A DNA stretch of 64,000 nucleotides from Bryum argenteum (Eukaryota; Streptophyta; Bryopsida; Bryales; Bryaceae). The notes beneath the pieces were generated by a model, which made no database searches, had not been told where the DNA came from, and was given only the letters and a program-made list of their open reading frames with translations. Location: NCBI GenBank assembly GCA_037043015.1, contig CM073328.1, positions 12,931,495 through 12,995,494 of the forward strand, in the 5' to 3' direction. The position numbers and the translations under genes were made by a program. Below, in pieces: positions 3,990 to 38,082 of the stretch (position 1 is its first letter; each line of letters starts with the position of its first letter).

Positions 3990-4389
3990 TTTTCAAACAT
4001 ATTCAATGGAAACTCACAAGACCAAGGAAAGATGACACATCTTCATTCAAAAATCTACAATCCCACAGACGAAAAGTGTTCTCAATGACGAAAAGTGTTC
4101 TCAATGACGAAAAGTGTTCTCAATGCAGAAATGAAAACTTTGAAAATGCAAGAGTAGAAATTATAGCTATCATGAAACTCTTCATCTCTTCATGGACTGC
4201 TTAAATGATCACTCCTCCCAGTCCATACTATCTGGACTCATACTAACTGGAGTCGGACTTCCACCCCTCATCGAAGTTCTCCATGCCCATACTGCAATCA
4301 CCCGCATGACCCCAATCATGCCCACATACGAAACGAAGGTGTGGTTGCCACGGCCTTGCCATCAAGGCAACAAGATCACATCTGTGAAA

Positions 4390-5883
4390 TTAGCGCGTAA
4401 TGAGGCGGTGGATATTATCGATCTTCATATTTGAAGCCTGCACAATACACGGTCGATTGTAAACTCTGATAGGAAGTTAGGTGCTGAATTCAAAGCATAT
4501 GTTCTACTTGGTCAACATTGAGTGTGGGAAATGTAGGTAAGTCACCAGCACATCTCTGATTTGCTCGGATGTACCATGCCGAAGGAGATATCTTTTCTGC
4601 TTTAACTCCTTGAGAAGTCCCTTCAGCTCGCTTCTCCGCTGGCACCCGGCGGCAATTGCACGGTGCAAAATTGTGATGTTATCTTTCAAGCACCTCACCT
4701 AGAAAAAATGCAAGTAAAATCGTGAGCATGGACTGCAATGCCTCGGACATGTCGCAATATACATATAGTTACAAAAATACCTGTCTCCCTGGCCACCGTC
4801 CGATCCCAAGGTATTTACATGCCGCTTGCAGATCTTTATAAGGAATATTAAGCTTGTCCGCGGCTACGAGTCCCTTCCGGTGGAAGTGGGGCCGAAGATC
4901 CGTCAGCCTCAGCTGTACGTTGTTTCGTTGATTCTGGGAAACATGGGTAAACAAACAACCATTACATCACGTAACACAATCAGAAAAGAAGAAATACAAA
5001 TGGATGGTGCCAAATTCTTTGACAATTACAGATGCCAAATTCTTACCGTGTACACTTCATACACATACTCGGAAGCCTCAGAGTCCTCTTCGGCTGGACT
5101 GCTCTCAGTAATATGCATACACGACCCCGACTCTGATCTGCACGCGCCATCAGGAGGTACTGCCTCATTTGATTCCATCGGCTCAGACTCCGACTCCATC
5201 TTAATGGGGCTCTCCTGAATGATCCTTTCGACGATATCGTCAGTAGCCAGGTTCTCCACATCCTCAGCCGGCATGCCTACGGAGGTCCGATGCGTCCCCT
5301 CTCCACCAACTTGGACGATGGTATTGACAGCCCTGTGCACACGCGGTGAGGCGAGGGCTATGGCCGGTGGTAATTCTCGTTGTGGGTTAGATGTCACCTT
5401 GGCCACGAGCTGGACAACTTCCGTGAGAATGGAGTGCAGTTCACCGAGGTTGCAGTCCAAATTGAAAAAACCCCGTTTCCCGTCTCTCCAAATCGTACTA
5501 AACGATGAAATAACATCGTTTTTTCCAATGTATCCAATACTGCGTGCATGTTCCTTCACATGCCACACACAGACAAGATATATAACTATGGCATAGTCAC
5601 CCAGGCAGAACTTGTTGCCGATATTGTTAATGTGTACTTTTAGGTTGAAGTTTAGGGTTATTTCATTCCTTTCAAAAGCATCTCATTCCTGCTACGGTTC
5701 TTTTATGCAATCAACTTGGATAGAACCGCTACGTACCTCAACAATGACAAGGAACTCTAGGGCCGTTGTCTTGATGTTTGCGGCGATGCTCAAGTACTTC
5801 TCTCCAACCAAAACCTTGAATCCTTTCTTCGGATTGTTTCCGCGAGGCTGAACATGGTATGGACAATCGCAAATGTGTGCCAT
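4390..5883 (-). CDS. RWP-RK domain protein, copy A (335 aa, 5 coding exons)
   Basis: Probable nuclear transcription factor. My model: exons 5883-5737, 5553-5047, 4933-4781, 4698-4546 and 4437-4390, all phase 0 with GT-AG introns. Exons 1-2 encode a conserved region of about 90 residues starting MAHICDCPYH, which I do not recognise, then an acidic Ser/Glu-rich linker (EEDSEASEY). Exon 3 carries the RWP-RK motif (LTDLRPHFH, AADKL, LGIGRWPGRQ; canonical form RWPxRK). Exon 4 is basic and probably helical. Exon 5 adds 15 residues (ASNMKIDNIHRLITR) and a stop. Sequence downstream of the stop resembles a decayed longer C-terminus as in C and F. A likely 5'UTR intron runs 6226-5901. It pairs divergently with BTB1 across 2.8 kb. 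The open frame is intact; expression is unknown. Confidence 0.75.
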
Positions 5884-8688
5884 GATTGCGCTTGCGATCA
5901 CTGTAAGCACACAAGATAGAAAAACTTTCAGTACACACGTAATATAGTACAAATGCAACAAAAGCACCTTGAAAGAGAGCAAGAAAACAAGACATTTGAC
6001 CTCCTCACTTCGATTAGGTCAACTGTATGAATCAAACGACAATATAGTTGTGCAACTACAGGAAACCTCACTGCGATTAGGTCAACTGTATGAATCAAAT
6101 GAAAATATAGTTGTGCACCACATGAACCAGAGCAAGAGAGCGCAATAGATCAAGAGAGCGCATGAGAGCACTGAAAGCGCAACAGAGCGCTGAGAGATGA
6201 CGCTACACTGCTCTTTGCCAACTCACCGAGCTCTCTGCGGACGGCGGGTGCTAGAATCTTCTTGTGCAAGCAGCGCCACCTTAACCAAGAGCCTCCTCAG
6301 TAGGAGAAACACTCATATATCCGTCGTATTTAAAGTAGTAACTTAGTGAAAAGGAATTTACTACACATTAAAAATTAATAGTGGTATTCTTAAGTAGTTT
6401 GTGGCCTTTTTCTAATTGACTATCTAACAATTGATCTTAGCCAATTATATTTAATCTCAAATATTAATACTTTATGACATTGCTATGAATAATTTTACTT
6501 TTTACTCAAATTTTAGAAAACTAGTCAATTGTATGTTTATTCAATGTTTATTTTATCCTAGATATGATTACGGGCAATGAGGAAGATAAATCAAAATAGT
6601 TGCGAATGCAGTAATGGCAAGTAGGCAGTAAATTGGCCTTTGAAAATACTTTTTAGTTCACCAACACCCCGACTAGCGGGCACTGGGGGCAACAAAGAGC
6701 CGCAGTTGCTGCACCACACAATCGCGAGATCCCAACTATTTTGAGGTGGCTTTGGCCAAGCGGTGGCAAGGCAGGTGCTCTCTGTTCATGTGCAAGGCCC
6801 TTGAGCGTCTAGAGGTTAACTTTGTAGAGGTTTTTTATCTTATCATTTTTTATGAAGACGACAATTCTTTATACGTAAATTTTTTTGTTCAATAAAATGT
6901 TCTTTCAATTATTAGGGCTTCAATTAAAGCTTTGTGATTGTACTAAAGAAAATAATTTTTTCTTAAATTCGAGGTAAAGGTGGAACTAATACTTTCAAGT
7001 TTACAAATTAGAGGTCACACTTAGAAGAAAACACTAAAATACTCCCAAGGCAAGGAGTTGCTTGGGAACGTTGAGACATTGGTGTCTATTAACATGTCAT
7101 AAACTTCAATCATATAAAGGGATAACAAGCTCTAAGCTCCTCTTCCTTTCATGCTTTTTATGGTCTTCTCGGTGTTGATCTTCTTTTCTCAAGGTAACAA
7201 ATTTTTTCTTTTGGTTAAGTATAGTATTTTCACTTTTTTCTTTCTTGCACGATTACGATGCCTTCAAATGAGAAAGAGCAAAGTTAGCTTTTCACTTGCT
7301 TTTGAGATATTGTATTAATCTTTGTTTCTCTTTTTACGAATGGTGTAGAAAGCGAATGTTCATGTAAGAAAGAAAGTCATGTCATGTAACAAATCTTCTA
7401 TTTTGGTTTAATATAGTATTTGCACTTTTGTCTTTCTTCACAATTACGGCGTTTTTAAATGAGAGGGAGCAATGTCAGCATTTTACTTGCGTTTGAGATG
7501 ATGTATCGATCATTGTTTCTCTTTTTACGGATCCGTAAACATGTTCAACATTTTACTGATCCGTAAACATGTTTGGCATTTTACAGATCCGTAATCGTTT
7601 ACGGACCTTTTACGGATCCGTTAACATGTAAGCCCACGATCAATACATTATCTCTTTCTTTTTTCTCTTTCTACGGATTCATGTTTTTACACATCTTGGG
7701 CTTAACATGTTAGGCTACGATGTGTAAGCCGAAGCATATTTGGCATTTCTAATACAAGAGAGTCTTTACTAGAGGGTTTCAAAGTGGGACTTGAAAATTT
7801 GTTGCGTAACTAGGCAATATTTCGTTGAGAAGGCTTCTTCTCACCCCTTATCGCACAAGTCATCCTAATGGCAAGGCCATATTAGCAAAAAGGCACACTA
7901 GGGTAATTATATGCAATTAGACTCTCCTTCTTCTTGCATTTTGTCCAAATTCAACCCTATTTAATTACTAGTGCTTTTCTCTTTTTCTCATGACCTCGGT
8001 AATTTATTCACATTGTTGTAAGATGACGATGATTGATGAATTACACCTTTTGTTTATTTATCCTATGCATTAGAAAATCTCCTTACTGTCTTGTTTATAC
8101 AGTCTACATTATCATAAGATAAGAATGCTACTATGCTTATTAAATTTGCTTTCTTAAAAGTTCAAAAAAGCGCATTCTCACTTGTCTCTTATTTGTTCAC
8201 CTTATATTTTTACAAGGAAAGGATGTCAATATGATTACAATTTTGATCTCCTTACTCTTCACTCTCTCCTTTTTAATTTCTTTTTCTTGGAGCACTAAAG
8301 AGCTCTCTTTTATAGAGATAAATCTCTTCTTTTGTCATCTTGATACTCTCACACGTTTAAGTTGTAGCAAAATATTCAATCTATGAATTCACTAACTCTA
8401 TATACCAAGATTTATAGATGTAGGTCAAAATGTCAATCTTACCTATTTCAAAAATTTTAATACTTGAGAAATATTAACTTTGGTTTTCAATCAAACTATG
8501 AAAAATAACATCCATTGATATTAAGATAATAAACATGTACATAGTCCAAATGTCCCCAAATGACATTAGAATCATTCATGTTCATTACCTAGTTGGTGCT
8601 CTTGCTAGGACTTCTGCTATCAATAAAAACCTACACTCTTCACTCCGATTAGTTCGTACAGTTACATTTCATTCATAGATGTTCATGC
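5884..8688. other. Shared intergenic region between RWP-RK A and BTB1
   Basis: This region is similar throughout to 24031-26757 between D and BTB2. It holds the A 5'UTR intron (6226-5901), a local direct duplication at about 5999-6120 (shared core GATTAGGTCAACTGTATGAA), a candidate TTTAAATAC box upstream of A near 6330, a roughly 190-bp unit repeated twice (about 7190-7340 and 7380-7530), and an array of palindromic TACGGATCCGTA-type sites at about 7530-7625. No convincing extra gene was found. Confidence 0.6.
7530..7625. repeat. Array of palindromic ACGGATCCGT sites
   Basis: About four degenerate copies of a unit like TTTTACGGATCCGTAAACAT occur in under 100 bp. The core TACGGATCCGTA is a perfect 12-bp palindrome, the shape of a homodimer binding site. 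The equivalent place in the second module (25575-25725) has about five copies, so the array is conserved but has changed in number. Confidence 0.6.
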
Positions 8689-8724
8689 TTGTGGAGAGGA
8701 AATATAACCTCAATAATTGCTAAG

Positions 8725-9351
8725 ATGGAGTCCGAGAGTCCATCCTTGGACCTCAATATTGCACAGTTCCTACGAGAAGTGAAGATTAAGCACTTAGCAA
8801 GGGTCAAGCAAGCGAGGAGCATGTTAGCCTCCACGACAGACGTGCACAAGCTCGTTAACAGCGTCAACACCGACATCACACTCAAAGCTTTGGATGGCAA
8901 TGTACAAGCACATCGACACATGCTAGTATCCTACTCTGCAGTTTTCAAAGCCATGGTTGAGAATCACACGGGCAAGCCCGAGGAGCCTCTAGAGTTGGCC
9001 ATGACCGTAGCTGCATTGAAGGTCCTGTTGGTGTTCTTTACGGCGCCAATAATCAATTAGCGACATGGCAAGTGTTTCATCCGGTCGTGAACGCACACTT
9101 CCACGAGATTTTGGATGCTTGTCACAAGTTCGAGATCATCCATCTCATGCCCACTTAGCATACGGCTCTTCTTGGGCGCCTGACTCATGCAAATTACGGG
9201 GAGTTTTACATCAAGGCCTTCGAGCTCAACAAGATCTGTGAAGAGCGGATGGGTATCTACGGATATTGTTGCCTTCATGAGCAATGTTGCAAATTTCTCA
9301 AGGAAAATCCTATTCCATTGAGTGATGCCGAGCGTCTGATGTATAGCTGCA
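8725..9351 (+). pseudogene. BTB/POZ-like gene, copy BTB1, frameshifted
   Basis: An open frame from ATG 8725 (MESESPSLDLNIAQ) runs into a BTB/POZ-type fold: NTDITLKALDGNV, AHRHMLVSYSAVFKAMVENH, then LELAMTVAALKVLLV. BTB domains mediate dimerisation and often recruit substrates to CUL3 ubiquitin ligases. Compared with BTB2 it lacks one base near 9036 (VLLYGANN in BTB2 becomes VFFTAPIIN and a stop at 9058). Further on, the BTB2-like frame contains a TAG near 9157. The copy therefore looks broken after the BTB core. Its N-terminal frame, however, runs straight into the BTB domain, unlike BTB2. It lies divergent to A and upstream of B. Confidence 0.7.
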
Positions 9352-9360
9352 GTCAATATG

Positions 9361-10085
9361 TTATTCTTAGATTGAAGATACGAAAATTTGTTATTGTGAC
9401 TTCAGCATTGGAATAGCTTGTAAGGAATATCTAAAGTGGGGACTTCTGTTATTGTACCTATCTTTAGTGAATTTTGAGATATTCTTGAACACCTGTGGAA
9501 GCTTTATTGTATCAAGCGTACGTTTGAATGTTAATGGCCACTAAGCAATTCTATTGTCGATCAGGCTAAGGGCATGGACAAGAAGAATCTCCTTGCAACC
9601 TTAAGTTTGTTCATTCACTCAATTCCAATTGTGTATCTAAAAACAACGTGTATATACAAACCAACAACAACATGACTGTTCATGTCTCATTTAAAACTTA
9701 AATATGCACTTCCAAGTTCAAACATATCAAAACGAAACTCACAAGACTAAGGAAAGATGACTCATCTTCATTCAAAAACCTACAATCCCACATACGAAAA
9801 TGATCTCAATGCAAAAATCAAAACTTTGCAAAAGCAAGAGTAGAAATAGCTATCATGAAACTCTTCATCTCTGCTTGGACTGATTAAATGATCACTCCTC
9901 CCAGTACATACTACCTGGACTCATTCTAAGTTTCTATCCGGAGTCGGACTTCCACCCCTCATCGAAGTTCTCCATGCCCATGCTGCAATCACCCGCGTGA
10001 CCCCAATCATGCCCACATACGAAACAGAACGGAGGTACGGTTGCCACGACCTTGCCATGGAGGCAACACGACCAGACCTGTGAAA
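9361..10085. other. BTB1 3' flank and 3' flank of RWP-RK B
   Basis: From about 9530 the DNA matches the 3' flanks of D (about 21985-22330) and E (about 30915-31270), sharing for example GTCGATCAGGC and TTCATTCACTCAA. It holds decayed C-terminal coding similarity on the minus strand (about 9920-10085), ending in a GAGGGGTGGAAGTCCGACTC-like stretch. This corresponds to the longer C-terminus seen in C and F. No intact gene is present. Confidence 0.5.
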
Positions 10086-11580
10086 TTAGTGCCTAATGAG
10101 GCGGTGGATATTATCGATCTTCACATTTGAAGCCTGCACAATACACGGTCGATTGTAAACTCTGATAGGAAGTTAGGTGCTGAATTCAAAGCATATGTTC
10201 TACTTGCTCAACATTGAGTGTGGGAAGTGGAGGTAAATCACCAGCACGTCTCTGATTTGCTTGGATGTACCATGCCGAAGGAGATATCTTTTCTGCTTTA
10301 ACTCCTTAAGAACCTTCTTCAGCTCGCTCCTCCGCTGGCACCCGGAGGCAATTGCACTTTTCAAAATTGAGATGTTGTCCATCAAGCATCTCACCTGCAA
10401 AAAAATGCAACTAAGATCGTGAGCATGGATTACAATGCCTCTGACATGTCGCAATATACATATAGTTACAAAAGTACCTTCGTGCCTTGCCAACGTCGGA
10501 TTCCAAGGGCTTTACATGCCGCTACCAGATCTGCATGAGGAACATTAAGTTTGTCCGCGGCTACAGGTCCCTTCCGGTGGAAATGAGGCCGAAGATCCGT
10601 CAGCCTCAGCTGTACGTTGTTTCGTTGATTCTGGGCAACATGGATATTAAACAAACAACCATTACATCAAACAAACACAGCTAGTAAAAAAGAAATACAA
10701 ATGAATGGTGCCAAATTTCTTGACAAAAATAGGTGCCAAATTCTTACCGTGTACACTTCATACACATACTCGGAAGCCTCGGAGTCCTCTTCGGCTGGGC
10801 TGCTCTCGCTATTATGCATAGACGACCCCGACTCTGATTTGCACGCGCCGTCAAGAGGTACTGCCTCATTTGATGCCATCGCCTCCGACTCCGACTCCAT
10901 CTCATCGGGGCTCTGGTGAATGATCCTTTCAAGGCTATTGTCAGTAGCCAGGTTCTCCACATCTTGGGCTGCCATGCCTACGGATGTCCGATGCGTCCCC
11001 TCCCCACCAGCTTGGCCGATGGTGTTGACAACCCTCTGTGCAGTTGGTGAGGCGAGGGCTATGGCCGGTGGTAATTCTCCTTGTGGGTTAGATGTCACCT
11101 TGGCCACGAGCTGGGCACCTTCCCTGAGAATGGAGTGCAGTTCACCGAGGTTGCAGTCCAAATTGAAAAAACCCCGTTTCCCGTCTCTCCAAATCGTACT
11201 AAACGATGAAATAACATCGTTCTTCCCAATGTATCCAATACTACGTGCATGTTCCTTCACATGCCACACACAAACAAGATATATAACTGTAGCATATTCA
11301 CCCACAACTTGTTGCCGATATTGTTATTGTGTACTTTTAGGTTGAAGTTTAGGGTTATTTCATTCCTTTCAAAAGCATCTCATTCCTGCTACGGTTCTTT
11401 TATGCAATCAACTTGGATAGAACCGCTACGTACCTCAACAATGACAAGGAACTCTAGGGCCGTTGTCTTGATGTTTGCGGCGATGCTCAAGTACTTCTCT
11501 CCAACCAAAACCTTGAATCCTTTCTTCGGATTGTTTCCGCGAGGCTGAACATGGTATGGACAATCGCAAATGTGTGCCAT
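10086..11580 (-). CDS. RWP-RK domain protein, copy B (335 aa, degenerate motif)
   Basis: Same five-exon architecture as A: 11580-11434, 11254-10748, 10630-10478, 10394-10242 and 10133-10086, every boundary phase 0. Exon 1 encodes MAHICDCPYHVQPRGNNPKK. Exon 2 carries the conserved N-terminal region and an acidic linker. The RWP-RK signature in exon 3 is altered to RRWQGTK, so the Pro of RWPxRK is Gln and the basic pair is changed; DNA binding may be weakened. Exon 4 (QRRSELKKVLKELKQKRYLL) is basic and helical. A 5'UTR intron is likely at 11823-11598. Its promoter, exon 1 and the first part of exon 2 lie in the inverted-repeat arm and are almost identical to C. Frame intact; expression unknown. 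Confidence 0.72.
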
Positions 11581-12438
11581 GATTGCGCTTGCGATCACTG
11601 TAAGCACACAAGATAAAAATACAAATGCAAGATAATTTAATACAAATGCAACAAAAGCACCTTGAAAGAGAGCAAGAAAACAAGACATTTGACCTCCTCA
11701 CTTCGATTAGGTCAACTGTATGAATCAAACGACAATATAGTTGTGCAAACACAGAACAGAGCAAGAGAGCGCAAGCAACAGAGCGCTGAGAGACGTCCGC
11801 AACATTGCTCTTTGCCAACTCACCAAGCTCTCCGCGGTGCCTTTGGAATTCTCTTATGCAAGCACGCGCCACCTTAGCCAAGAGCGTCCTCGCTAGCAGA
11901 AAGACGATATAAAAGGCGCGGCACCGGTCGCAACAACTTTACGGCCTCTTGCATGCGCCTTCTATTTTTAGCAAGAAGGCAAAAAGGGGTGCCCTAACGT
12001 TGGCGTTGGTCAAGATTGCATGTGCAAAGACCAAGAGCTTTTCAAAAGTGTCCAATTGTATAAGGACACAAATGTTCCAAAAGTATTTACATACTTTAAA
12101 TACCTAACTCTCAGAGCGTCAAGAGACAAGAGTTGTTGGATATTTTTATTTTATTTTTTAAACTTATCAAAAGCAAATCATAATTTGTAATTATGATAGA
12201 CTAAAACTTTATTGAATATTACAAAATAAAGGATGGTGAAGATTTTACTTGCAATTTCCTTTAGAATAAAACAAAAATTAAAGATGGGGTGATACATTTG
12301 CGTACTAAAAATGATTTCAGTACTTCAATTTATAGCAAAGAGAGGCATTATATGAGGAGTCAAGTCATTCATAACCAAGGCCTTATGGGGGCAAACATTG
12401 TCTCATACATGGGATTGCTCCATTTAAGAGATCTAAGT
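11047..12438. repeat. Inverted repeat, arm 1 (1.39 kb)
   Basis: This arm is nearly identical to the reverse complement of 15221-16613, with only scattered substitutions and a few short indels, concentrated near the 5'UTR and promoter. It contains the 5' part of exon 2, exon 1, the 5'UTR intron and the promoter of RWP-RK B, plus about 0.5 kb beyond. A 93-aa open frame at 12289-12570 starts in the arm and runs out of it; I judge it non-coding. The arm ends at about 11047 inside exon 2 (after codons PPAIALASP) and near 12438. Confidence 0.85.
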
Positions 12439-15220
12439 TACGCAAATGAAGCTAATGTTATCGGATGGTCTATGTCTCTTGGATGTTTGTATATATCTAA
12501 AAAAAGATTAATGACTTTTGAGGAGCTTGATGTCTTTTATCTAACATTGGATTTCAGTTCTCTTTGTTGAATTTATTAAATTCTGATTTTTGTGGTAGAT
12601 CTATCTTAAGTGTGAGGAATACACTCCATGGAATTTTGTGCAAGGGGTTTATTTATAGACTGACCTTCTTTCTTCTTTGAAATTAAGGACTATTTTAACT
12701 ATTTTAAAACCATTCTTGGTGCTAAGAAATTTTTTTCATGGTTTTTTTAGTTCAAAGAGGTGATTGAGATAAAGGAATTGAGATAAAGGAAAACAACTTT
12801 CTAGTTGGTAATTTTTTGATTGCAATATGTCTTCTAGTAGCATTTTCAATTCAAAATGAAAATGATGAAATTTTGTGATGAGTTTGAGTACTAATATATG
12901 ACTATCTTGCATCTATGAGACCTCATGACTAAAAATGTATCTCACATGATGTTAGATATGTCTACCACATGATTGTACGGCTGAGAGTGTGAAATCTGAG
13001 TTATTTGAGATTATGTTCTTTTTGCTACAAATGAGTAAAACCATTGAGGAGTTAAGAGCATACCCTTGCATTCTAAAAAACTACATTTGTTCTTAACCCC
13101 TAATTTTTTTGGTTTGTTTTAAGAGCTGAAATTTCAAAACCATAATTATTCTACCTCCAAAAGTGTGGCCACCAAAAATAAAATCTTCTCGCCTTTTCCA
13201 AACTTCCAACTCTAAGTTCTTGTAGTAATCCTATTATTAGACATTGATCCACGGTTTTCCTGAAGAATTTTTAAAACTTTGAAACTTGCTCCTATAAATT
13301 TTGAAGGCTACCCTTGCACTTGTGAAAGTTTTGACCTGGGGTCACTTGAAAATATGGGTGGAAATGTGTATATGAACATCTTAGGAAAAAAAAAGAAAAA
13401 ATCTTAAAATTAAAAAGTTTATTTCTCGCCGCCGAGAGTGTGAAAACTAAAATTTTCATTTAAAAACTCTTAAAGCGGAATTTGACATTGAACTATTTTT
13501 TATGCACACCTTGGAGTATGAACAGTATTCTATAAAAATCTTAGGAATTTTATTTATATTTTAACACCTCCATGTAGCCTATCCAACACAACAAGAAGCT
13601 TGTTGGGCCTTTAAGGATATATACAAGTTAGGAGTTAATTATGATAGATAGTCTTTTTAGATTTTTTATATTCAGTCTTGATGGAGGACATGGTTTGCAT
13701 ATAAGAATATTCATCAATGAGTGAAATTATGGCTGTGAGAAATTCCTAACTAAGTTTTATCTTTGCCTAAATATCATTAAATTTTTAAGAGTGGACTAGT
13801 TGTAAAGGCTGGACTTATAATGAAATATTGCTTCTTGTTTACAATACACATTCAAGGGTGTTGATAGATAATTAATTAAATATGGATAACGCTCTAGCTT
13901 ATAATACACATTTGAGTTAGATAAGATATAAGATATAATTTACCTATCAATTCTCAATCAAAAATACTATTGAAGATTTATAATTTGAAAGGTTTTGGTA
14001 GGTTACATATAGCATGTTTTTTGAAAAGACAAATTTTAATACAGATGTATTGTAAGTCTAATTGCAAATGGAATATAAAATTGGCCTTTTATTTTTCATT
14101 TTTCTTTTTGTTCTTAACCTCCAAAGTCCAAACAAACAAGAAAAGATTCTTTCTTAAGCAATTTGTATCAACCGATTGGATTAGTCCTTTGGACCTTTGA
14201 CGTTGCCCAACTCCTTGTAATCAATTTCTCTTTTATTCTGTGGTAACCATTTTTTGATTTTCTTCAAGAATTGCAAGCCACACCAATGTTTGAGCTTGAT
14301 TACATTGCTAAGTAAGATGAGAGAAAAATCAATTGAATAAAACCACCAATATTTAAGATCAATATACTACTCTATTCCAATATAAGGGACAAAAAAGTTG
14401 CTAAAATAATAAGACTGATTAGTCATAGTTTAATGAACAAATGTTATTAAAATTGATGATATACATAACGTAGTTCTCATTCTTAGAACCTTGTTAACAC
14501 AATCTTGGATTTTGATTCTTAGACATTTCTAATAGACTAGCAACAAGTCGGCTTAATGTAGCCAAAGAAGAGGGGTCCCTAATGTAGCACCTCTTTGAAC
14601 ACAAACCCTTTTATTGTTAAATGTACCTTTTATTTTCTCCATTTCTTAACCATGCCAAAAGTTCAAAAGTAATTGATGTCGAAGAATTCAAAAGTTTTTT
14701 ATGCTTCTCTAAGAGGCGAGTTGAAGCTTTCAAAAGTCAAGTGAACAAAATAAGAGTTTGGTAGGTAATGTAATGAGTACCTCAACTTTTGAGGGTCCTT
14801 CTATTGGAGACTTCGAGGCCTCTAGAAGGCGAGCCGCAAAAGGTGGCGGGTCATGTATCGAGTCCATTGAGAAAAGGAAAAGAGCTTATCTTGCTAAATA
14901 TAGTCACTCTGGTTCATTTGATATGCTCTAATTAATTTTGTAACCCTTTACGTTTATATTCATTTCTTTATACCATTGAAATAATTATAAGCTTAAGCAT
15001 TAGCTTTTGATTAAAGCAATGATTTTGGGTTTCTACAATGACAAGAGTGGTTGTATGTGTTTCTACTAACTAAGAATCTAATCTTATTACAAACACATAC
15101 AAACATTCTAATTTTCAAGAAACTTGTATATCAAAGAAATGTAAATGCTTCACGTTAGAATTCAAACCAATCATGGGATAAGCATAGCGAACCTTCCTCA
15201 TGTGACTTCAGACTTGTTCG
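12439..15220. other. Spacer of the inverted repeat, with piggyBac-like relics
   Basis: About 2.8 kb separate the arms. The part at about 12440-13010 resembles the 44260-44770 interior of the TTAA element at 43867 (shared TTTCTAGTTGGTAATTTTTT-like and CCTCATGACT segments). The part at about 13095-13600 is a diverged relative of the 29036-29722 element. From 13600 to 15220 I see no gene or named element; the DNA is AT-rich with short open frames only. Confidence 0.45.
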
Positions 15221-16613
15221 GTACCTTAAATCTCTTAAATGGAGCAATCCCATGTATGAGACAATGTTTGCCCCCATAAGGCCTTGGTTATGAATGACTT
15301 GACTCCTCATATAATGCCTCTCTTTGCTATAAATTGAAGTACTGAAATCATTTTTAGTACGCAAATGTATCACCCCATCTTTAATTTTTGTTTTATTCTA
15401 AAGGAAATTGCAAGTAAAATCTTCACCATCCTTTATTTTGTAATATTCAATAAAGTTTTAGTCTATCATAATTACAAATTATGATTTGCTTTTGATAAGT
15501 TTAAAAAATAAAATAAAAATATCCAACAACTCTTGTCTCTTGACGCTCTGAGAGTTAGGTATTTAAAGTATGTAAATACTTTTGGAACATTTGTGTCCTT
15601 ATACAATTGGACACTTTTGAAAAGCTCTTGGTCTTTGCACATGCAATCTTGACCAACGCCAACGTTAGGGCACCCCTTTTTGCCTTCTTGCTAAAAATAG
15701 AAGGCGCATGCAAGAGGCCGTAAAGTTGCGACCGGGCTGCCGCCCTTTTATATCGTCTTTCTGCTAGCGAGGACGCTCTTGGCTAAGGTGGCGCTGCTTG
15801 CATAAGAGAATTCCAGCACCCGCGGAGAGCTTGGTGAGTTGGCAAAGAGCAATGTTGCGACGTCTCTCAGCGCTCTGTTGCTTGCGCTCTCTTGCTCTGT
15901 TCCTGTGTTTGCACAACTATATTGTCGTTTGATTCATACAGTTGACCTAATCGAAGTGAGGAGGTCAAATGTCTTGTTTTCTTGCTCTCTTTCAAGGTGC
16001 TTTTGTTGCATTTGTATTAAATTATCTTGCATTTGTATTTTTATCTTGTGTGCTTACAGTGATCGCAAGCGCAATCATGGCACACATTTGCGATTGTCCA
16101 TACCATGTTCAGCCTCGCGGAAACAATCCGAAGAAAGGATTCAAGGTTTTGGTTGGAGAGAAGTACTTGAGCATCGCCGCAAACATCAAGACAATGGCCC
16201 TAGAGTTCCTTGTCATTGTTGAGGTACGTAGCGGTTCTATCCAAGTTGATTGCATAAAAGAACCGTAGCAGGAATGAGATGCTTTTGAAAGGAATGAAAT
16301 AACCCTAAACTTCAACCTAAAAGTACACAATAACAATATCGGCAACAAGTTGTGGGTGAATATGCTACAGTTATATATCTTGTTTGTGTGTGGCATGTGA
16401 AGGAACATGCACGTAGTATTGGATACATTGGGAAGAACGATGTTATTTCATCGTTTAGTATGATTTGGAGAGACGGGAGACGGGGTTTTTTTAATTTGGA
16501 CTGCAACCTCGGTGAACTGCACTCCATTCTCTCGGAAGGTGCCCAACTCGTGGCCAAGGTGACATCTAACCCACAAGGAGAATTACCACCGGCCATAGCC
16601 CTCGCCTCACCAC
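15221..16613. repeat. Inverted repeat, arm 2 (1.39 kb)
   Basis: This is the partner of arm 1. It carries the promoter, the 5'UTR intron (15834-16059), exon 1 and the first 70 or so codons of exon 2 of RWP-RK C. Similarity to B stops within exon 2 at about 16613, exactly where C begins to match the F type (PPVHGI). The high identity implies a recent inverted duplication or continuing gene conversion. Confidence 0.85.
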
Positions 16614-21133: not shown

Positions 21134-21143
21134 ATGAAGATAG

Positions 21144-21395
21144 AAACTCCGGTCCCTTTCTAAGGGGGCCGGCGTGAATGAAGTGTCTGTTCGTAATGCT
21201 AATATCCCGATAGCCACCGGACAAGGGGAAATTGGAAAAGGCAAGTTACACTATACCATGGCATGGTCCGGACATGAAACCCGTCGCCGACGTCATTGCG
21301 TTGTATGTAGGAAAGTTCAACAATTTTATTGTCCCACTTGCAATGTGGCAATTTGTATGGGAAATTGTTTCGTTATTCATCATTCAAAATATTGA
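21144..21395 (+). pseudogene. piggyBac C-terminal Cys-rich domain, out of frame
   Basis: This frame reads RRRRHCVVCRKVQQFYC, then CNVAICMGNCFVIHH, the pattern of the cysteine-rich zinc-binding C-terminal domain of piggyBac transposases. It lies directly downstream of the 413-aa frame but in a different frame. Slippage in the intervening GAAGATA repeat (21108-21142) is a simple explanation. Alternatively the two parts could be joined by splicing. As it stands the main frame lacks this end-binding domain. Confidence 0.7.
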
Positions 21396-22539
21396 GAACA
21401 ACTAGTTTGATTTTTATTTTTTTTGTATATGTAAATCTTTGAGATTTCATGAATAAAATAAACTACAAAATCTTTTATGGTGCTATTGTATTTTTTAGAT
21501 TATGATTTATGAGACTATATATCATTGGGCACTCATCCCACTCTCTCTCCCCCCCCATTAGTGAAAATTTTAGTCCTCATCTCAGGCCCATTCAGTCCTT
21601 CGCCCATTCAGTCCTTCGCCCATTCGGTCCTCCGTGAGTCATACTGCAAGAGAAAAAATAAAAAAGGAAAAAACAAAGGCAAGACAAGGCAAAAAAACAG
21701 AGGGGCTTGGAAAAAAATAGAGGGGCTTGGAAGGGGCTTGGAAGTTGCAGGTCCCATGCCCATGCCCGACCTCGCAGGTCCCAGCCCGCGCCCGTGTCTG
21801 GCTGCTCAATTCAACTCCAGGTTTGAAGCACGCCTTCTGCATCGAAGTCGCAGGCTGCCCCTGCTCCATAAAGTTCTCTTTTTTATTCCGGGTTGCCCGC
21901 CCAAGACTGTAAGGACCTTTAAGGGTTAAAACCAGGTGAGCATAAAACGGTGACGAGCAGGGTGAGGACCTGCGCATACACGTTTGAATGTTCATGGCCT
22001 TTGAGCAATCTTATTGTCGATCAGGCGAAGGGCATGGGTAAGAAGAATTCTATTGCCACCTCTGTTCATTCACTCAAATTCAATCGTGTAACTAAGTACA
22101 ATTAACTTACAAACGTACAACAACAACATGACTTGTTCATGTCTCATCTAAAACTTAAATGTGAAATCTTATGTGCGCTTCCAATTTCAAACATATTCAA
22201 TGGCACCTCACAAGACCAAGGAAAGATAACCCATCTTCATTCAAAAATCTACAATCCCACATACGAAAAATGTTCTCAATGCAGAAATTTAAACTTTGCC
22301 TTCCGCAAGAGTATAATTAGCTATCATGAAATTGTTCATCTCTTCTTGGACTGATTAGATGATCACTCCTCCCAGTACCTGCTATTTGGACTCATTCTAA
22401 CCGGAGTCGGACTTCCACCCCTCATCGAAGTCCTCCATGTCCACGCCACAGGCACCCGCGTAACCCCATGCCCACAATTGGAACGGAGGTAAGGTTGCCA
22501 CGGGCTTGCCATGCAGGCAACAAGATCACATGTGTGAAA

Positions 22540-24030
22540 TTAGCGCGTAATGAGGCAGTGGATATTATCGATCTTCATATTTGAAGCCTGCACAATACAC
22601 GGTCGATTGTAAACTCTGATAGGAAGTTGAGTGCTGAATTCGAAGCATATGTTCTACTTGCTCAACATTGAGTGTGGAAAGTGTAGGTAAGTCACCAGCA
22701 CATCTCTGATTTGCTCGGATGTACCATGCCGAAGGAGATATCTTTTCTGCTTTAGCTCCTTGAGAAGTCCCTTCAGCTCGCTTCTCCGCTGGCACCCGGC
22801 GGCAATTGCACGGTGCAAAATTGTGATGTTATCTTTCAAGCACCTCACCTGGAAAAATTGCAACTAAAATCGTGAGCATGGACTGCAATGCCTCGGACGT
22901 GTCGCAATATACAAATAGTTACAAAATTACCTGTCTGCCTGGCCACCGTCCGATCCCAAGGTATTTACATGCCGCTGCCAGATCTTTATAAGGAACATTA
23001 AGCTTGTCCGCGGCTACGAGTCCCTTCCGGTGGAAGTGGGGCCGAAGATCCGTAAGCCTGAGCTGTACGTTGTTTCGTTGATTCTGGCCATCATGGAAAT
23101 ACAAATAACCATCACATCATGCCAGCACAATCAGAAAACAAGAAATACAAATGGATGGTGCCAAATTCTTTGACAATTACAGGTGCCAAAACTCTTACCC
23201 GATACACTTCATTATCATACTCGGAAGCCTCGGAGTCCTCTTCGGCTGGGCTGCTCTTGCTATTATGCATAGACGACCCCGACTCTGATCTGCACGCGCC
23301 ATCAGGAGGTACTGCGTCATTTGATTCCATCGGCTCCGACTCCGACTCCATCTCATTGGGGCTCTCGTGAATGATCCTTTCGAGGCTATTGTCAGTAGCC
23401 AGGTTCTCCACATCCTCAGCCGGCATGCCTACGGATGTCCGATGAGTCCCCTCTCCACCAGCTTGGCCGATGGTGTTGACAACCCTCTGTACAGGTGGTG
23501 ACGCAATGGCTATGGCCGGTGGTAATTCTCCTTGTGCGTTAGATGTGACCTTGCCCACGAGCTGGACATCTTTCGAGAGAATAGAGTGCAATTCACCGAG
23601 GTTGCAGTCCAAATTAAAAAATCCCCGTTTCCCGTCTCTCCAAATTGTACTAAATGATGAAATAACATCGTTCTTCCCAATGTATGCAATACTGCGTGCA
23701 TGTTCCTTCACATGCGACACACAATCAAGATATTCAACTGTAGCATATTCACCCAGGCAGAACTTGTTGCCGATATTATTATCGTTTTAGGTTGAAGTTT
23801 AGGGTTATTTTATTTCTTGCAAAAGCATTTGATTCCTACTAGGGTCCTTTTACACAACCAGCTTGGATAGAACCGCTACATACCTCAACAATGCCAAGGA
23901 ACTCTAGGGCTGTTGTGTTGACGTTTGCAGCGATGCTCAAGTACTTCTCTCCAACCAAAACCTTGAATCCTTTCTTCGGATTGTTTCCGCGAGGCTGAAC
24001 ATGGTATGGACAATCGCAAATGTGTGCCAT
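22540..24030 (-). CDS. RWP-RK domain protein, copy D (335 aa, 5 exons)
   Basis: Exons 24030-23884, 23705-23199, 23083-22931, 22848-22696 and 22587-22540, the same boundaries and lengths as A and B. A 5'UTR intron is likely at 24260-24048. Residues begin MAHICDCPYH. The acidic linker includes SPAEEDSEASEYDNEVY. The RWP-RK motif is LGIGRWPGRQ with AADKLNVPYKDL before it. Exon 4 has the basic QRRSELKGLLKELKQKRYLL helix. The C-terminus is the short type (ASNMKIDNIHRLITR). Downstream on the minus strand is a decayed MEDFDEGWKSDSG-like tail, a relic of the longer C-terminus. It is divergent with BTB2, as A is with BTB1. Frame intact. Confidence 0.77.
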
Positions 24031-26757
24031 GATTGCGCTTGGGATCACTGTAAGCACAGAAGATGAAAAAACTTTCAGTAGACACATAATCTAATACAAA
24101 AGCAACAAAAACACCTTTACAGTAGAGGAAGAAAACAAGAGAATTAACCTGCTCTCCTATCAACGGTAAGACGACAACGAAGTTGTCCAAACACGGGAAA
24201 CACAGCAAGTGAGCGCAATAGAGCATTGAGACGAGTCTACGCTACTCTTTGCCAACTCACCGAGCTCTCCACACGTGCTAGAATTTTCTTATGCAAGCAG
24301 GGCCACCTTAAGCAAGAGCCTGCTCAGTAGGAGAAACATTCATGTATCCGTGGTATTTAATGTAGTAACTTAGTGAAGAGGAACTTACTACTTTTAAAAA
24401 TCAATAGTAGTATTCTTAAGTAATTAGTGGCCTTTTACTAATTTACCATATAACAATTGATTTTTGCCAATTATATAAAATCTCAAATACTAATACTTTA
24501 AGACATTGTTATGAAGTATTTTACTTTTAACTCAAATTTGAGAAAAATACTCAATTCTATGTTTATTCAATGTTTATTGTGTCCTATATTGATTATATTG
24601 GCAATCAGGAAGATAAGTTAAGATAGTTGCGAATTCGGTAATAGCAAGTAGGCAATAAATCGGCCTTTGAAAATACTTTTAAGTTCACCAAAAGCGCGAC
24701 TGGCGGGCATTGGGGGCTGCAGTTCACCAATAGGCGACTGGCAGGCACTAGGTCTGCAAAGAGCCGCAATTGCTGCACCACACAATCCTGAGATTCCAAC
24801 TATTTTGGGGTGGCCCTGGCGAAGCCTTGGCAAGGCAGGTGCTCTGTGTTCATGTGCGAGGCCCATGAGCCTCTAGAAGTTAACTTTATAGAGGTTTTTT
24901 ATCCTATCATTTTTTAAGAAGACAAAAATTCTATACATGTAAATATTTTTGTTAAATAAAATGTTCTTTCAATTATTAGGGCTTCATTTAGAGCTTTGTG
25001 ATTGTCCTACAGAAAATATTCTTTTCTTAAATTTGAGGTAAAAGTGGAACAAATACTTTCAAGTTTACAAATTAGAAGTCACATTTAGAAGAAAACACCA
25101 AAATACTCCCAAGGCAAGGAGTTGCTTGGGAACGTTGAGACATTGGTATCTATCAACAACATGTCATAAACTTCAATCATATAAAGGGATAACAAGCTCT
25201 AAGCTCCTCTTCCTTTCATGCTTTTTATGGTCTTCTCGGTGTTGATCTTCTTTTCTCAAGGTAACAAATTATCTGTTTTGGTTTAGTATATTATTTGCAC
25301 TTTTTTTCTTTCTCGCACGATAACGACGCCTTCAAATGAGAGAGAGCAAAGTTAGCTTTTCACTTGCGTTTGAGATAATGTATTAATCTTTGTTTCTCTT
25401 TATACGGATGGTGTAAAAAGCAAATGTTCATGTAAGAAAGCAAGTCATGTCATGTAACAAATCTTCTCGTTTGGTCAAGTACAGTATTTGCACTTTTGTC
25501 TTTCTCTGCGGCTTCAAATGAGAGGGAGCAATGTCAGCTTTACTTCCATTTGAGATGATGTATTGACCATTGTTTCTCTTTTTACGGATCTGTAAACATG
25601 TTTAGCATTTTACGGATCCGTAAACATCTTTTACAAATCTTTTACGGATCCGTAAACATCCTTTACGAATCTTTTACGAATTCGTAAACATCTTTCACAA
25701 ATCTTTTACGGATCCGTAAACATGTAAGCTCACGATCAATACATTATCTCTTTTTTTCTCTTTTTACAAATCCATGTTTTTACACGTCTTGGGCTAAACA
25801 TGTTAGTTCAAGATGTCTAAGCCTAAGTCGTATTGGCATTGCTAGTCCGAGAGAATCTCTACTACAGGGTTCCAAAGTGGAACTTAACAATTCCATTTGT
25901 TGCGTAACTAGACAATATTTTTTTGTTAGGCTTTTTCTCACCTCTTTTTGCACAAGTCATCCTAGTTGCAAGGCCACGTTAGCAAAAAGGCACACTAAGG
26001 TAATTATTTGCAATTCTCTACTTCTTGAGTTTTGTCCAATTTCAACCCTATTTGATTACTAGTGCTTCACTTTTTTCCTCACAACTTCTGTTATTTATTC
26101 ACATTGTTGTAAGATTAAGCTGATGAATTACACCTCTAGATTATTTATCCTATGCATTGGAAATCTCCTTACTGTCTTATTTATACAGTCTACATTATTA
26201 TAAGATAAGAATGTTGATAAGCTTATTAGATTTTCTCTCGAAGAAGATTAAAAAGCTCATTTTCACTAGTTTTTTATCACTTCACCTTATATTGTCTCTA
26301 GAAAAGGATGTAAAGATGATTACTATTCTGTTCTCCTTACTCTTCACTCTCTCTTTTTTCATTTTCTTGAAGAACAAAGAGCTCTCTTTAACAAATATAA
26401 ATCATTTCTATTCTCATCTTGATACTCTCAGATTTTTATGTTGTAGCAAGATGTTCAATCTATGAATTAGAGACTCCATATAGCAAGATATATAGATGTA
26501 TGTCAAAATGTTAATCTTACCTATTTCAAAATTTTAAATAAATGAGAAATAGTAACTCTGGTTTTCAATCAAATTATGAAAAATAACATCCATTGATATT
26601 AAGATAATAAGCATGTTCATAGTCCAAATGTCCCCAAATGACATTAGAGTCATACATGTTCATTACCTAGTTGGTGCTCTTGCTAGGACTTCTGCTACCA
26701 ATAAAAACCTACACTCTTCACTCCGATTAGTTCACAGAGTTACATTTCCACTCACAA
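24031..26757. other. Shared intergenic region between RWP-RK D and BTB2
   Basis: This is the counterpart of 5884-8688 and similar along its length. It contains the D 5'UTR intron, the twice-repeated unit of about 190 bp (about 25255-25400 and 25450-25590) and the palindromic site array at 25575-25725. Near 24690-24760 it has an extra local duplication (GCGACTGGCGGGCATTGGGG and GCGACTGGCAGGCACTAGG) absent from the first module. I see no additional gene. Confidence 0.6.
25575..25725. repeat. Array of palindromic ACGGATCCGT sites, second module
   Basis: About five units of the form TTTTACGGATCCGTAAACAT, one with ACGAATTCGT in place of ACGGATCCGT. The array is at the same relative position as 7530-7625, about 1.05 kb upstream of the BTB start. 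Confidence 0.65.
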
Positions 26758-27441
26758 ATGGTCATGTTTGTGCAGAGGAAACCAAGGACATATAACCTCG
26801 ATTGCCAAGATGGAGTCCGAGAGTCCATCCTTAGACCTCAACATTGCACAGTTCCTACGAGGAGTGAAGATCAAGCACTTAGCAAGGGTCAAGCAAGCCA
26901 GGAGAATGTTAGCATCCACGACGCGGACGTGCACAAGCTCGTGAACGGCGTCAACACCGACATCACACTCAATGCTCTGGATGGCAATGTGCGAGCACAT
27001 CAACACATGCTAGTATCCTACTCTTCAGTTTTCAAAGCCATGATTGAGAATCACACGAGCAAGCCCGAGGAGCCTCTGGAGTTGGCCATGACCGTAGCGG
27101 CGTTGAAGGTCCTGTTGGTGTTGCTTTACGGCGCCAATAATCAATTAGCGACATGGCAAGTGTTTCATCCGGTCGTGAACGCACACTTCCACGAGATTTT
27201 TGATGCTTGTCGCAAGTTCGAGATCATCCAACTAGTGCCCACTTTGCATACGGCTCTTCCTGGGCGCCTGACTCATGCAAATTACGGGGAGTTTTACATC
27301 AAGGCCTTCGAGCTCAACGAGATCTGTGAAGAGCGGATGGGTGTCTACGGATATTGTCGCCTTCATGAGCAATGTTGCAAATTTCTCGAAGAAAATCCTA
27401 TTCCATCGAGTGATGCGGAGCGTCTGATGTATAGCACTTAG
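26758..27441 (+). CDS. BTB/POZ-domain protein, copy BTB2 (227 aa)
   Basis: Open from ATG 26758 to the stop at 27439-27441. Residues about 67-165 fit a BTB/POZ domain: NTDITLNALDGNVRAHQHML, SSVFKAMIENH, LELAMTVAALKVLLVLLYG, then a helical segment (HFHEIFDACRKFEIIQL). The C-terminal half (EFYIKAFELNEICEERMG and CRLHEQCCKFLEEN) may be a BACK-like helical region. Such proteins commonly act as CUL3 adaptors, but the partner is unknown here. Residues 1-57 are read in a different frame from BTB1: relative to BTB1, two bases differ in number near 26920, so the MESESPSLDL frame (ATG 26810) no longer joins the BTB domain. The true N-terminus is therefore uncertain. Confidence 0.72.
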   Translation: MVMFVQRKPRTYNLDCQDGVRESILRPQHCTVPTRSEDQALSKGQASQENVSIHDADVHKLVNGVNTDITLNALDGNVRAHQHMLVSYSSVFKAMIENHTSKPEEPLELAMTVAALKVLLVLLYGANNQLATWQVFHPVVNAHFHEIFDACRKFEIIQLVPTLHTALPGRLTHANYGEFYIKAFELNEICEERMGVYGYCRLHEQCCKFLEENPIPSSDAERLMYST

Positions 27442-29035
27442 TATGTTATTCTCAGATTGAGGATACAAAAATTTGCTGTTGTGATTTCAGCATTGGAAAA
27501 GCTTGTAGGGGATATCTAAAGTGGGGACTTTTGTTATTGTACCTATCTTCTGTAAATTTTGAAATATTCTTGAACACCTGTGGAAGCTTCATTGTTTTGA
27601 ACATACAAAAGAAGAATGCGTGTCTTGAAGATTGGACGCAAAAGTAACTAGATAATCTCTTGAGATTCTCATTTATGTTCTTAATACATGTTTCAATACT
27701 ATTATTTATTGGTAAATCTATGTTTGTCAATGCTATCATCGCCTATATGACTTACGACCAATTTGGGTGCATGCAAGTCTGCTTTGCGTATATACATATT
27801 CAAACGGACATAAAAATTTGTAAGGAACGCTTTACATGGGGAGTCAAGCCGTACATGGAGCCAAAAGAGGAAAATATTCTCTCAACCTGATTGATGTATT
27901 TTTGTAGTTACAAAAATGGATCAATCTGGTTGAGAGGATTTTTGCCCTCATTCAGTCCGCTAAACTATAATTGTACACAACTTATTTGATCCTGAAATGC
28001 CCATAAGGTTATATTTTCATTGATGTACAATTTGAGGCCTCACAACAATGGCATCTGAAGTTCTGAACGACTTTTTATCGTAAACATTTGTAGACAAGTT
28101 AACCTCATTGAGTGTACTACCATATGCAACAATAATAAAGTCCAGTCAAACCATGATTGTGCTACATATGCTATTCAAATTATGTGTTGCATGTGATATA
28201 CTTTAAACTTAGCTTATATTTATTCTAAAAATCATACTCGACCAAACGTCTTTAAGTGCACTACCATATGCAACAGTAATAACTTCTATATATAAAAGAA
28301 TACGATTCTTGTGCTATCCTTGGTGATCCATACATGCATGGTCATGGTCATGGTTATTACCATAATTTGGTCATGTATAGACATCATAAAGAGTTTTAAA
28401 GATTTTCATGCGTTTCCATAAGTGGTATTTGATTGCTATTCAGAGTTTATTAGATCACCATCATATAACAAGGAGTAAAAGGGGCAAGGAACATAGAATA
28501 TGAAAGAGCGAACAAGAGATCAAGGGGACATCAAAGGGGGACTAGGAACCGGGAACAAATGATAGGAATTGAAAATAGAGGATAGAACTAGGAACAAATA
28601 ATGAAAATCAGGAATGACTAATGAAGATTAGGAACGAATGATGAAAACTGGGAACAAATGATAGAAACCAAGAAGGGGAGTTTGGGATGGTGAACCAGAA
28701 ACAAAGGATGGGAACCGGGAACGGGAGTTTGGAGATAGGGAACTAGTCATTAACAAGAAAACGGAGAATGAAGAACGATAAGAGAGGACATGGAACTGGG
28801 AATAAGGGACTTAGTAAACGGAGGACATGCTACAAATTTTAAAATGCAGGGAGACTATGAACAAGGGAACCGGGGATAGGGGTAGTTTTTGAAGAGCACC
28901 AAATAAAAAGCTCACCTATCGGGACGAGAGGGACCTTATTCACAAAATAATTATATATATAATTTTATTATTATTATTAATCTATTATTTATATGATTAT
29001 TTTTTAAAAATTGTGTCTGTAGAACACAGGTATAT
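27442..29035. other. BTB2 3' flank and purine-rich tandem repeats
   Basis: About 27490-28290 matches the relics at 2020-3980. About 28480-28880 is a purine-rich array of degenerate units such as GGGAACAAATGATAGGAA and GGAACGAATGATGAAAAC, with no coding sense. No gene is recognisable. Confidence 0.5.
28480..28880. repeat. Degenerate purine-rich tandem array
   Basis: Repeated units of about 20-25 bp built on GGAACnAATGATnnnAA, plus longer GGGAACCGGGAACGGGAG-like steps, give a strand with almost no pyrimidine runs. It is a minisatellite of unknown role. Confidence 0.6.
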
Positions 29036-29722
29036 TCCCTAACCGTCCATGGGTGGTTTTGGGAGCTCAAAACCTCAAAACTGCTATTTCCTATGCACTC
29101 CCACAGATGTGAACCAACTCTTTTATGCCTTTTAGAACTTCCAACCGTAAGATCTTGTACCTAAGACTATTTTTAGTTGTTGTTCCAAAAATCAAAACTG
29201 CTATTTCCTATGCACTCCCACAAATGTGAACCGATTCTTTTATGCCTTTTAGAACTTCCAACCGTAAGATCTTGTACCTAAGACTATTTTTCATTGTTGT
29301 TCCAAAAATTGACCGTTGGATGCTTACCACTTGAGAAATCGTAACATTCAAAGTTTGTCTCCCAAGTTTTTTGGGCAGTATCAAAAATTGTTTTAGGAAT
29401 TTTTGGAGGCTGCCCTTGTAAAATTGATAAATGTTTCGACTTGTGTCACTTTGGAACTCAAGTAGTGATTTGTTTATGAACATATTTCCAAAAAAAATTC
29501 AAAAAAAGACTAAATTTAAACTACCCTTTTTGGACTTCAAACCTAAACTTTCTAGATGAAGGTTTTTGAATTGGAATTTGGCTTTGCAAATTTTACCACA
29601 TACTTTTTGGAGTATAAGGAACACCCAATACAAACTTTAGGCAAAAATATTACTTTTAACACCTTCATCTAGGTTGCCCGAAATTGCAAAAACCCGTTCC
29701 GGGTTTCAAGGAAGGTTAGGGG
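29036..29722. mobile_element. Non-autonomous piggyBac-like element, about 0.69 kb
   Basis: The ends read TCCCTAACCGTCC (left) and, reverse-complemented, CCCCTAACCTTCC (right), diverged piggyBac-type ends; the TTAA duplications are no longer clear. The right 260 bp match, inverted, the 5' non-coding part of the piggyBac element at 19337-19600, including the stretches TTTACCACATACTTTTTGGA and AACATATTTCCAAAAAAAA. It contains a direct duplication of about 100 bp (about 29070-29185 and 29190-29300). No transposase. Confidence 0.6.
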
Positions 29723-31461
29723 ATATACTAGTGTCCATTCAAGCAATAATAATACTCATTCAAATCATGCGATACATATTTAATTTTTGTGTTGTATATG
29801 ATAACCTTAAATTCAGGATGGTTTCATGAACCGAAAGAGATTATATTCACTAAAATCTTTGTAGCTTTGTTGATGATCTTTTCAATTTTGTACGATTAGG
29901 TTATAAGAGGCCCTTGATTGACTTCGCAAGGCATTGATATTAAAGGGTTGAACAATCTCTGGATTTTAGAGGTATATTGAACAACATAGCAAACACGGCA
30001 AATTATAATATTTCTTACTAGTATGTTTCCGGTTGTCCCAAAGGGGAAGGTCTTTACATGGTACTTTTAAAAAGTATCCCGTGTCTACCATTTCCTCAAA
30101 CGATTTTTTTTCTCCCTTTTTCTCTCTCTTTATTCATATTTTGTAATACATAAAAGAAGGTAGGAAGGTTGGTAAGTTTGTAGGTTGGTAGGTTGGTACA
30201 TTGGTGGGTAGGAATGATCGGAAGATCATAGTTTACTGAGCAAATGGAATTAAACAGGTTTAATGTCCGTGCTAAAATATGAAGAGGAAGTTTTCCATGC
30301 CATGTCTGATCTTACTGAGCAAATAGACCTCGGTTTTGCGAGTGACAACCTCGTGAGTGCACGCACAAAGCTTCAGAATCGGACAGCAACTGGGTTCCTC
30401 TGGCACTTTATCAAATCCAAGAGGGCATACAACAGTCGACTAGCGGAGTGAGCAGCAGCACAGTCAAGGTAGGACATAGCTCCTGCTTTTCAATGGTGTT
30501 CTCTCCACCTGCATGGACTGGTCAGCAATGGAAGTCGGGGCCGTGGGTCTAAAGCCTGCGCAGTTAGAGTAGGAAGTTAAAGAGGAATAATTAGTATGAC
30601 TAATGAGACAGACTTGTTGATAGTTACTCCAATTTAGAACAAAGTAAGGATGAGGAATCAACTTGATCGGCTTGTTAGAACCATATGCAAATTGTTAAAT
30701 GTTCATTTTGAAGAACTGGTGGATTTATCAAATGGGATTGAAATAGGCAATATTGGGACTGAAGGAATGCAAAGCAATTCTTGTAAATTAGCCAAAAAAA
30801 TAATCAAATCTGTTTGTTCCTGGTGGAGGTGCATCACAAACTATGGAGGTGGTGCTTCATCAAACCGAGGTGAGCATAAAACGCTGACGAGCAAGGTGAG
30901 GACCTGCGCATTCAAGTTTGAACGATCATTGCCACTGAGCAATTCTACTCTCGATCAGGCGAAGGGTATCATGGACAAGGAGAATCCCGTTGCAACCTCT
31001 GTTCATTCACTCAATTCCAATCAAGTAACTAAGAACAGCCTCTAAATACAAACTTACAGCAACATAGCTGTTCATGTCTCATTTAAAACTCAAATATGCA
31101 CTTCCAAGTTCAAACATATTCAATTGAAACTCACATGACTAAGGAAAGATGACCCATCCTCATTCAAAAACCTTTAATCCCACAAACAAAAGAATGTTCT
31201 CAATGCAAAAATTTAAACTTTGCCTATGCAAGAGTAGAAATAGCTATCATGAAACTTTTCATGTCCTCTTGGACTGATTAAATGATCACTCCTCTCAGTA
31301 CCTGATATTTGGACGCATTCTAACCGGAGTCGGACTTCCATCCCTCATCGAAGTCCTCCATGTCCATGCCACAGTCACCCGCGTGACCCCATGCCACATA
31401 CGAAAAGGAGGTACGGTTGCCACGGCCGTGCCATGGACGCAACAAGATCACATCTGTGAAA
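29723..31461. other. Intergenic DNA with two unrecognised frames and E 3' flank
   Basis: A 62-codon frame at 30263-30451 (MSVLKYEEEVFHAMSDLTEQ) follows an AAACAG acceptor-like site and could be an exon remnant, but I recognise no family. A 131-codon frame at 30650-31045 runs into the repeated RWP-RK 3' flank from about 30865 and is probably not a gene. From 30868 to 31461 the DNA matches the 3' flanks of B and D. Confidence 0.35.
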
Positions 31462-31768
31462 TTAGCGCGTAATGAGGCGGTGGATATTATCGATCTTCAC
31501 ATTTGAAACCTGCACATTACACGCCCGGTTGAAAACTCTGGAAAGAATTTGAGTGTTGAATCAAAGCATATGTTCTACTTGCTCAACATTGAGTGTGGGA
31601 AGTGTATGTAAATCACCAGCACGTCTCTGATTTGCTCGGATGTACCATGCCGAAGGAGATATCTTTTCTGCTTTAGCTCCTTGAGAAGCCTCTTCAGCTC
31701 GCTCCTCCGCTGGCACCCGGCGGCAATTGCACATTCCAAAATTGTGATGCTGTTTATCAAGCATCTCA
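31462..31768 (-). pseudogene. RWP-RK gene fragment E (exons 4-5 only)
   Basis: Contains exon 5 (31509-31462, stop included) and exon 4 (about 31768-31617, MRCLINSITILECAIAAGCQ, then RRSELKRLLKELKQKRYLL), with the normal intron between them. Exons 1-3, including the RWP-RK motif, are absent. The break falls at the first bases of exon 4, where a dispersed repeat (31766-32335) begins. The 3' flank matches B, so E corresponds to B in the second module. Confidence 0.8.
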
Positions 31769-37926: not shown

Positions 37927-38082
37927 GATTGTACTTGCGACCACTGTAAGCGCACACAATAAAACTTTCTGCACACACAACATATGAAGTAAGATGGAAT
38001 ACATAATTTAATTATAAAGTCTCTCATCGGTAGAGTAGAGTGAAAGAATACAAACAGATTATGCCGACTTGATCCAAGTCAT
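37927..38082 (-). promoter_or_regulatory. Upstream sequence of F with conserved splice acceptor
   Basis: On the minus strand a CTTACAG acceptor (ending at 37944) precedes the F start codon, at the same position as the 5'UTR acceptors of A-D. The matching donor was not found because upstream sequence is replaced by the minisatellite. Confidence 0.5.

Follow-up and report, generated by a model that had tools for sequence, protein, structure and literature searches.

A block-duplicated cluster of RWP-RK genes with mosaic 5′ halves and damaged BTB neighbors

Six copies of an RWP-RK gene (A–F), with two damaged BTB genes (BTB1 and BTB2) among them, are found in the window, the 64,000-nucleotide stretch of DNA analyzed here. 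They probably represent a birth-and-death cluster of short, single-domain (RKD-like) RWP-RK factors that has been subject to ectopic exchange and in which the BTB genes are passengers. The neighbor genes indicate a streptophyte nuclear origin for the window: the cluster is accompanied by a gene for a CLASP-like TOG/HEAT protein (~46–52.6 kb), which we take from its motifs to be plant CLASP, and by a phytoene synthase gene (60.2–61.4 kb). As expected of plant DNA, BTB2, exon 2 of A, and the transposase of a piggyBac element have no relatives among viral contigs, and the CLASP-like protein has none among bacterial and archaeal genome contigs. Rfam and tRNA scans of the window gave no matches; the Pfam scan of the spacers covered selected ORFs only.

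Models of the RWP-RK genes were built from sequence alone. Five exons with GT-AG introns can be modeled in A, B, C, D, and F; four of these copies (A–D) keep an open reading frame over their whole length. In the predicted protein, an approximately 220-residue N-terminal region with no Pfam match precedes the RWP-RK domain, which exon 3 encodes, and exon 4 is charged and helical-looking; the modeled C protein and the A N-terminus match no Pfam family besides RWP-RK. Copy A (3985–6061, minus strand) has coding exons at 5883–5737, 5553–5047, 4933–4781, and 4698–4546, with the last starting at 4437, and GT-AG boundaries at all introns. B (9522–11754) and D (22179–24154) also lie on the minus strand and C (16077–17899) on the plus strand, while F (36087–37926, minus strand) is frameshifted by an 8-nt deletion in exon 2. 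With the RWP-RK profile (Pfam PF02042, curated cut-off 29.3 bits) the copies score 38.6 (A), 32.4 (B), 50.2 (C), 37.3 (D), and 48.3 bits (F); the RWP-RK exon of F, downstream of its frameshift, is still well conserved. Close variants of RWPxRK are present in A and D (RWPGRQ), C (KWPGRR), and F (KWPGRQ). In B this motif reads RWQGTK, with loss of the P of RWP and of one R; the profile match stops after 41 of its 49 positions, and weakened DNA binding is predicted. The predicted genes that combine an open frame with a close variant of the motif, and that appear intact by sequence, are A, C, and D. E (30862–31769, minus strand) retains only exons 4–5 and the 3′ flank; it has no RWP-RK domain by Pfam and, lacking the RWP-RK exon, was rejected as an RWP-RK gene. 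An earlier, sequence-only reading of this DNA had missed the intact C and the frameshifted F and had counted the fragment E as an RWP-RK gene.

Alignments of B with D (84.8% identity) and of A with B (88.9%) place A, B, D, and E in one family, type 1; C and F constitute type 2. Pairwise dN/dS values of the open A, B, and D frames are 0.34–0.46, with bootstrap intervals below 1. Between A, B, or D and C, dS is 1.3–1.5 in the 3′ halves and 0.03–0.15 in the 5′ halves. NLP proteins have a conserved N-terminal region. The RWP-RK family is divided into two subfamilies, RKD and NLP (PMC11712027). Because no second Pfam domain, such as a C-terminal PB1, was found in the modeled C protein or the A N-terminus, NLP was rejected, and the copies are assigned as RKD-like by exclusion only.

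Self-comparison of the window confirmed that A–BTB1–B (4.0–11.9 kb) recurs in the same orientation as D–BTB2–E (21.9–31.8 kb), as had been noticed previously. The two blocks are collinear at 85–92% identity across genes, introns, and intergenic DNA, including 2.2 kb upstream of BTB. A and D are 88.5% identical over the spans given above, the BTB1 and BTB2 regions (6176–9510 and 24212–27595) 85.6%, and B and E (9522–10393 and 30916–31768) 85.5%. Kilobase matches at 85–99% identity exclude chance as the source of this similarity. The earlier description as a three-gene module holds for the collinear A/D, BTB1/BTB2, and B/E pairs, but not for the third gene, since E has no RWP-RK exon and is 3.3 kb from BTB2. 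The right ends of the blocks are accordingly unlike: B directly follows BTB1, whereas the extra 3.3 kb between BTB2 and E is absent from BTB1–B.

Divergence is alike throughout the block. A/D dS amounts to 0.139 with all codons included and to 0.108 for the 3′ half alone, BTB1/BTB2 dS is 0.115, and divergence is 0.124 in the spacer upstream of the BTB genes, 0.127 in the BTB 3′ flank, 0.126 for B/E, and 0.122 for D/E. Similar values (~0.11–0.14) in coding, intron, and intergenic DNA fit one segmental duplication of the whole block, by which the RWP–BTB order was inherited. Passive segmental duplication, one of two explanations offered by the sequence-only reading, is supported by the even divergence and by lesions in both BTB genes; the comparison of synonymous divergence that it proposed (A/D, 0.108–0.139; BTB1/BTB2, 0.115) likewise fits a single event. 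Sites in exon 4 and the 3′ flank divide A, B, D, and E in two ways, 17 as AB|DE and 15 as AD|BE; a plain A=D, B=E pairing is blurred here, either through exchange or because the copies arose at almost the same time. Left of A are traces of the BTB2 3′ flank (27638–28293), as smaller pieces and as a copy (3662–3990, immediately left of A) of the unstranded segment 27960–28293, which suggests the boundary of a further BTB–RWP unit. The unit therefore probably stood in a tandem array earlier.

An apparently complete piggyBac element (19333–21929, plus strand) adjoins the D module on its left side and lies outside the module itself. It has TTAA at both ends (19333 and 21926), terminal inverted repeats, the ends reading CCCCTAAAG / CCCTTAAAGG, and a long transposase frame (DDE_Tnp_1_7, E = 1.8e-72). 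On the left, the D/E homology begins where the element stops (21929 vs 30862); the sequence left of the element is not similar to that left of E. An inverted fragment at 29460–29691 (minus strand) is 82% like 19368–19601 inside the element. E is cut at ~31768, at the start of a repeat shared with 39247–39816; 31766–33162 and 39247–41208 form a diverged repeat pair (72–79%), one copy of which starts at this truncation point. Nested tandem repeats with units of ~20, 36, 74, and 92 nt occupy 38060–38650, just upstream of F, and ACGGATCCGT is the palindromic core of short tandem arrays upstream of BTB1 (7523–7629) and BTB2 (25580–25723).

Neither BTB gene is clearly intact by its reading frame: BTB1 is a pseudogene, and BTB2 is damaged or at best remodeled. 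The BTB domain (Pfam PF00651, cut-off 20.5 bits) scores above cut-off in BTB2 (30 bits) and in the N-terminal part of BTB1 (26.7 bits); the domain (E = 6e-7) is followed by a short C-terminal part. The BTB1 coding exon (8725–9349, plus strand) keeps a MESESP N-terminus and contains a 1-nt deletion near 9036 and a TAG at 9156–9158, two separate lesions that mark it as a pseudogene. Sequencing error was rejected as their source, because the lesions are separate and neither lies in a long homopolymer. BTB2 (26758–27441, plus strand) is open across the BTB domain, but two extra bases immediately after MESESPSLDL leave the domain frame at +2 nt relative to the N-terminal frame starting at 26810 and not joined to it; an ATG farther upstream, at 26758, could serve as the start of the domain frame. 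Changes between BTB1 and BTB2 in the MESESPSLDL frame number 0, 1, and 6 at codon positions 1, 2, and 3 (dN/dS 0.10), a bias that supports this as the frame of the N-terminus. The earlier notion of an intact RWP-RK/BTB pair is doubtful and was rejected. The single-sequence AlphaFold model of BTB2 is poor (mean pLDDT 46.6), and no sequence relative of the BTB protein was found among solved structures. BTB coding sequence differs at 35/620 positions (5.6%) and the upstream DNA at 249/2184 (11.4%; Fisher p = 1e-5), which suggests that BTB was constrained for part of its history or that the copies exchanged sequence. The passenger reading does not cover this whole history.

The 5′ halves of the RWP-RK genes are mosaic. 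The B 5′ half with ~0.5 kb upstream (11041–12441) and the C upstream region with its 5′ half (15221–16616) form the near-identical left and right arms, both unstranded features, of a 1.4 kb inverted repeat, with 10 differences in 1392 aligned bases and 0 in the 179 sites of intron 1. Within exon 2 (alignment column ~1014), B/C identity drops abruptly from 97–100% to ~53%. C consists of a B-like 5′ half (to ~16612) and an F-like, type-2 3′ half that carries the RWP-RK domain, the helical exon 4, and the C-terminal tail; by its open frame it is an intact recombinant (chimeric) gene. Sites at which A matches B but not D number 56 in the 5′ half and 58 in the 3′ half, and those at which A matches D but not B number 11 and 87, respectively (Fisher p = 1.5e-9). 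A=B sites occur in a run of up to 22, a length reached in 0 of 20000 shuffles. With so few copies, the only split that trees resolved was that between types 1 and 2 in the 3′ half, and site patterns and distances were therefore used.

The likeness of the B and C 5′ halves may be due either to gene conversion between the arms or to inverted duplication in recent times. If the B 5′ end had been duplicated in inverted form just once, recently, and fused to an old type-2 gene, the arms would run ~0.5 kb past the gene at near-identity, as is observed, but we regard this as rather unlikely to be the whole event. A also has a homogenized 5′ half, being 100% identical to B in alignment columns 501–700 (exon 1 and intron 1), and F is far nearer to type 1 in intron 1 (JC 0.31) than in introns 2–4 (JC 0.69–0.73), which suggests an older exchange and points to repeated 5′ exchange. 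C/F dS is alike in the two halves (0.54 and 0.43), so the C 5′ half may be native and the type-1 5′ half borrowed, although the direction of exchange is uncertain.

The sequence-only reading had also offered a co-selected pair, for example a regulator and its degradation adaptor. On this view, BTB could be a CUL3-type adaptor controlling turnover of the adjacent RWP-RK factor, and selection would keep the two adjacent. The pair is indeed present twice, with a third unit suggested by the flank traces left of A; BTB has diverged less in its coding sequence than in its flanks (BTB1/BTB2 dN/dS 0.36), and BTB2 keeps an open BTB domain. However, divergence is equal across the whole block, BTB1 has two lesions, and BTB2 has an N-terminal frame change. 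The window holds no BTB sequence beyond BTB1 and BTB2, so C and F are without a BTB of their own, and no title or abstract found for RWP-RK and BTB as sex-linked, tandem-duplicated, or clustered genes reports such a neighbor pair. Adjacency thus repeats by block copying, next to one pseudogene and one BTB gene remodeled at best; co-selected pairing is not supported, and we give it very little credence. It is also very improbable that the locus belongs to a sex-determining or mating-type region, with copy-number change and arm conversion reflecting U/V or mating-type evolution. RWP-RK genes are known from such regions, on the Ceratodon U chromosome (PMC8000587) and as Chlamydomonas MID and Ulva RWP1 (PMC5601483), and palindromes with gene conversion occur on sex chromosomes (PMC8000587), but no feature in the window is tied to sex, and the CLASP-like and phytoene synthase neighbors are ordinary housekeeping genes.

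In the birth-and-death cluster that we favor, a unit of RWP-RK (minus strand) and BTB (plus strand) was copied as a block, consistent with the equal divergence throughout, followed by decay of BTB1, E, and F and by motif erosion in B. The 5′ halves would have been exchanged by ectopic gene conversion or by recombination between inverted arms. A, C, and D may still encode working DNA-binding proteins, and the shared N-terminal ~115 residues may be a swappable module, combined with either of two diverged DNA-binding halves. The BTB genes would be linked passengers, once functional and now failing. It is possible, if doubtful, that recurrent 5′ exchange keeps the N-terminal module alike while the two DNA-binding halves diverge. 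Recombination would then produce new regulators that retain an old partner-binding end but address new DNA targets, and the region might be sex- or mating-linked. Given expression of C and its relatives, regulators would be remade here by front-half swaps between diverged paralogues, a route to quick change of RWP-RK targets or partners. More generally, repeated gene adjacency is weak evidence of functional pairing unless duplication ages are checked.

The BTB genes resemble plant BTB/POZ proteins, putative CUL3 adaptors, in having a BTB domain followed by a short C-terminal part, and differ in that both copies are damaged or remodeled and contain no second Pfam domain such as TAZ, MATH, NPH3, or ankyrin. 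The RWP-RK copies share with short, single-domain RKD/MID-like factors an RWP-RK domain above the Pfam cut-off, and the charged, helical-looking exon after the domain recalls a leucine-zipper-like motif reported for MID (PMC5601483). In contrast to these factors, they have an approximately 220-residue N-terminus with no Pfam match, WPGR[QR] instead of WPxRK, and a mosaic cluster of two types. Near-identical inverted arms against a background of ~12% divergence, together with partial-length homogenization, recall clusters undergoing palindrome-linked or ectopic conversion, including those on sex chromosomes. Unlike in such clusters, the arms here are only 1.4 kb long, with the homogenized tract ending inside an exon and leaving diverged DNA-binding halves. 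Clusters of this type, in which a transcription-factor family undergoes tandem birth and death with partial homogenization, are already known; the intact chimera C is a moderately interesting feature of this one.
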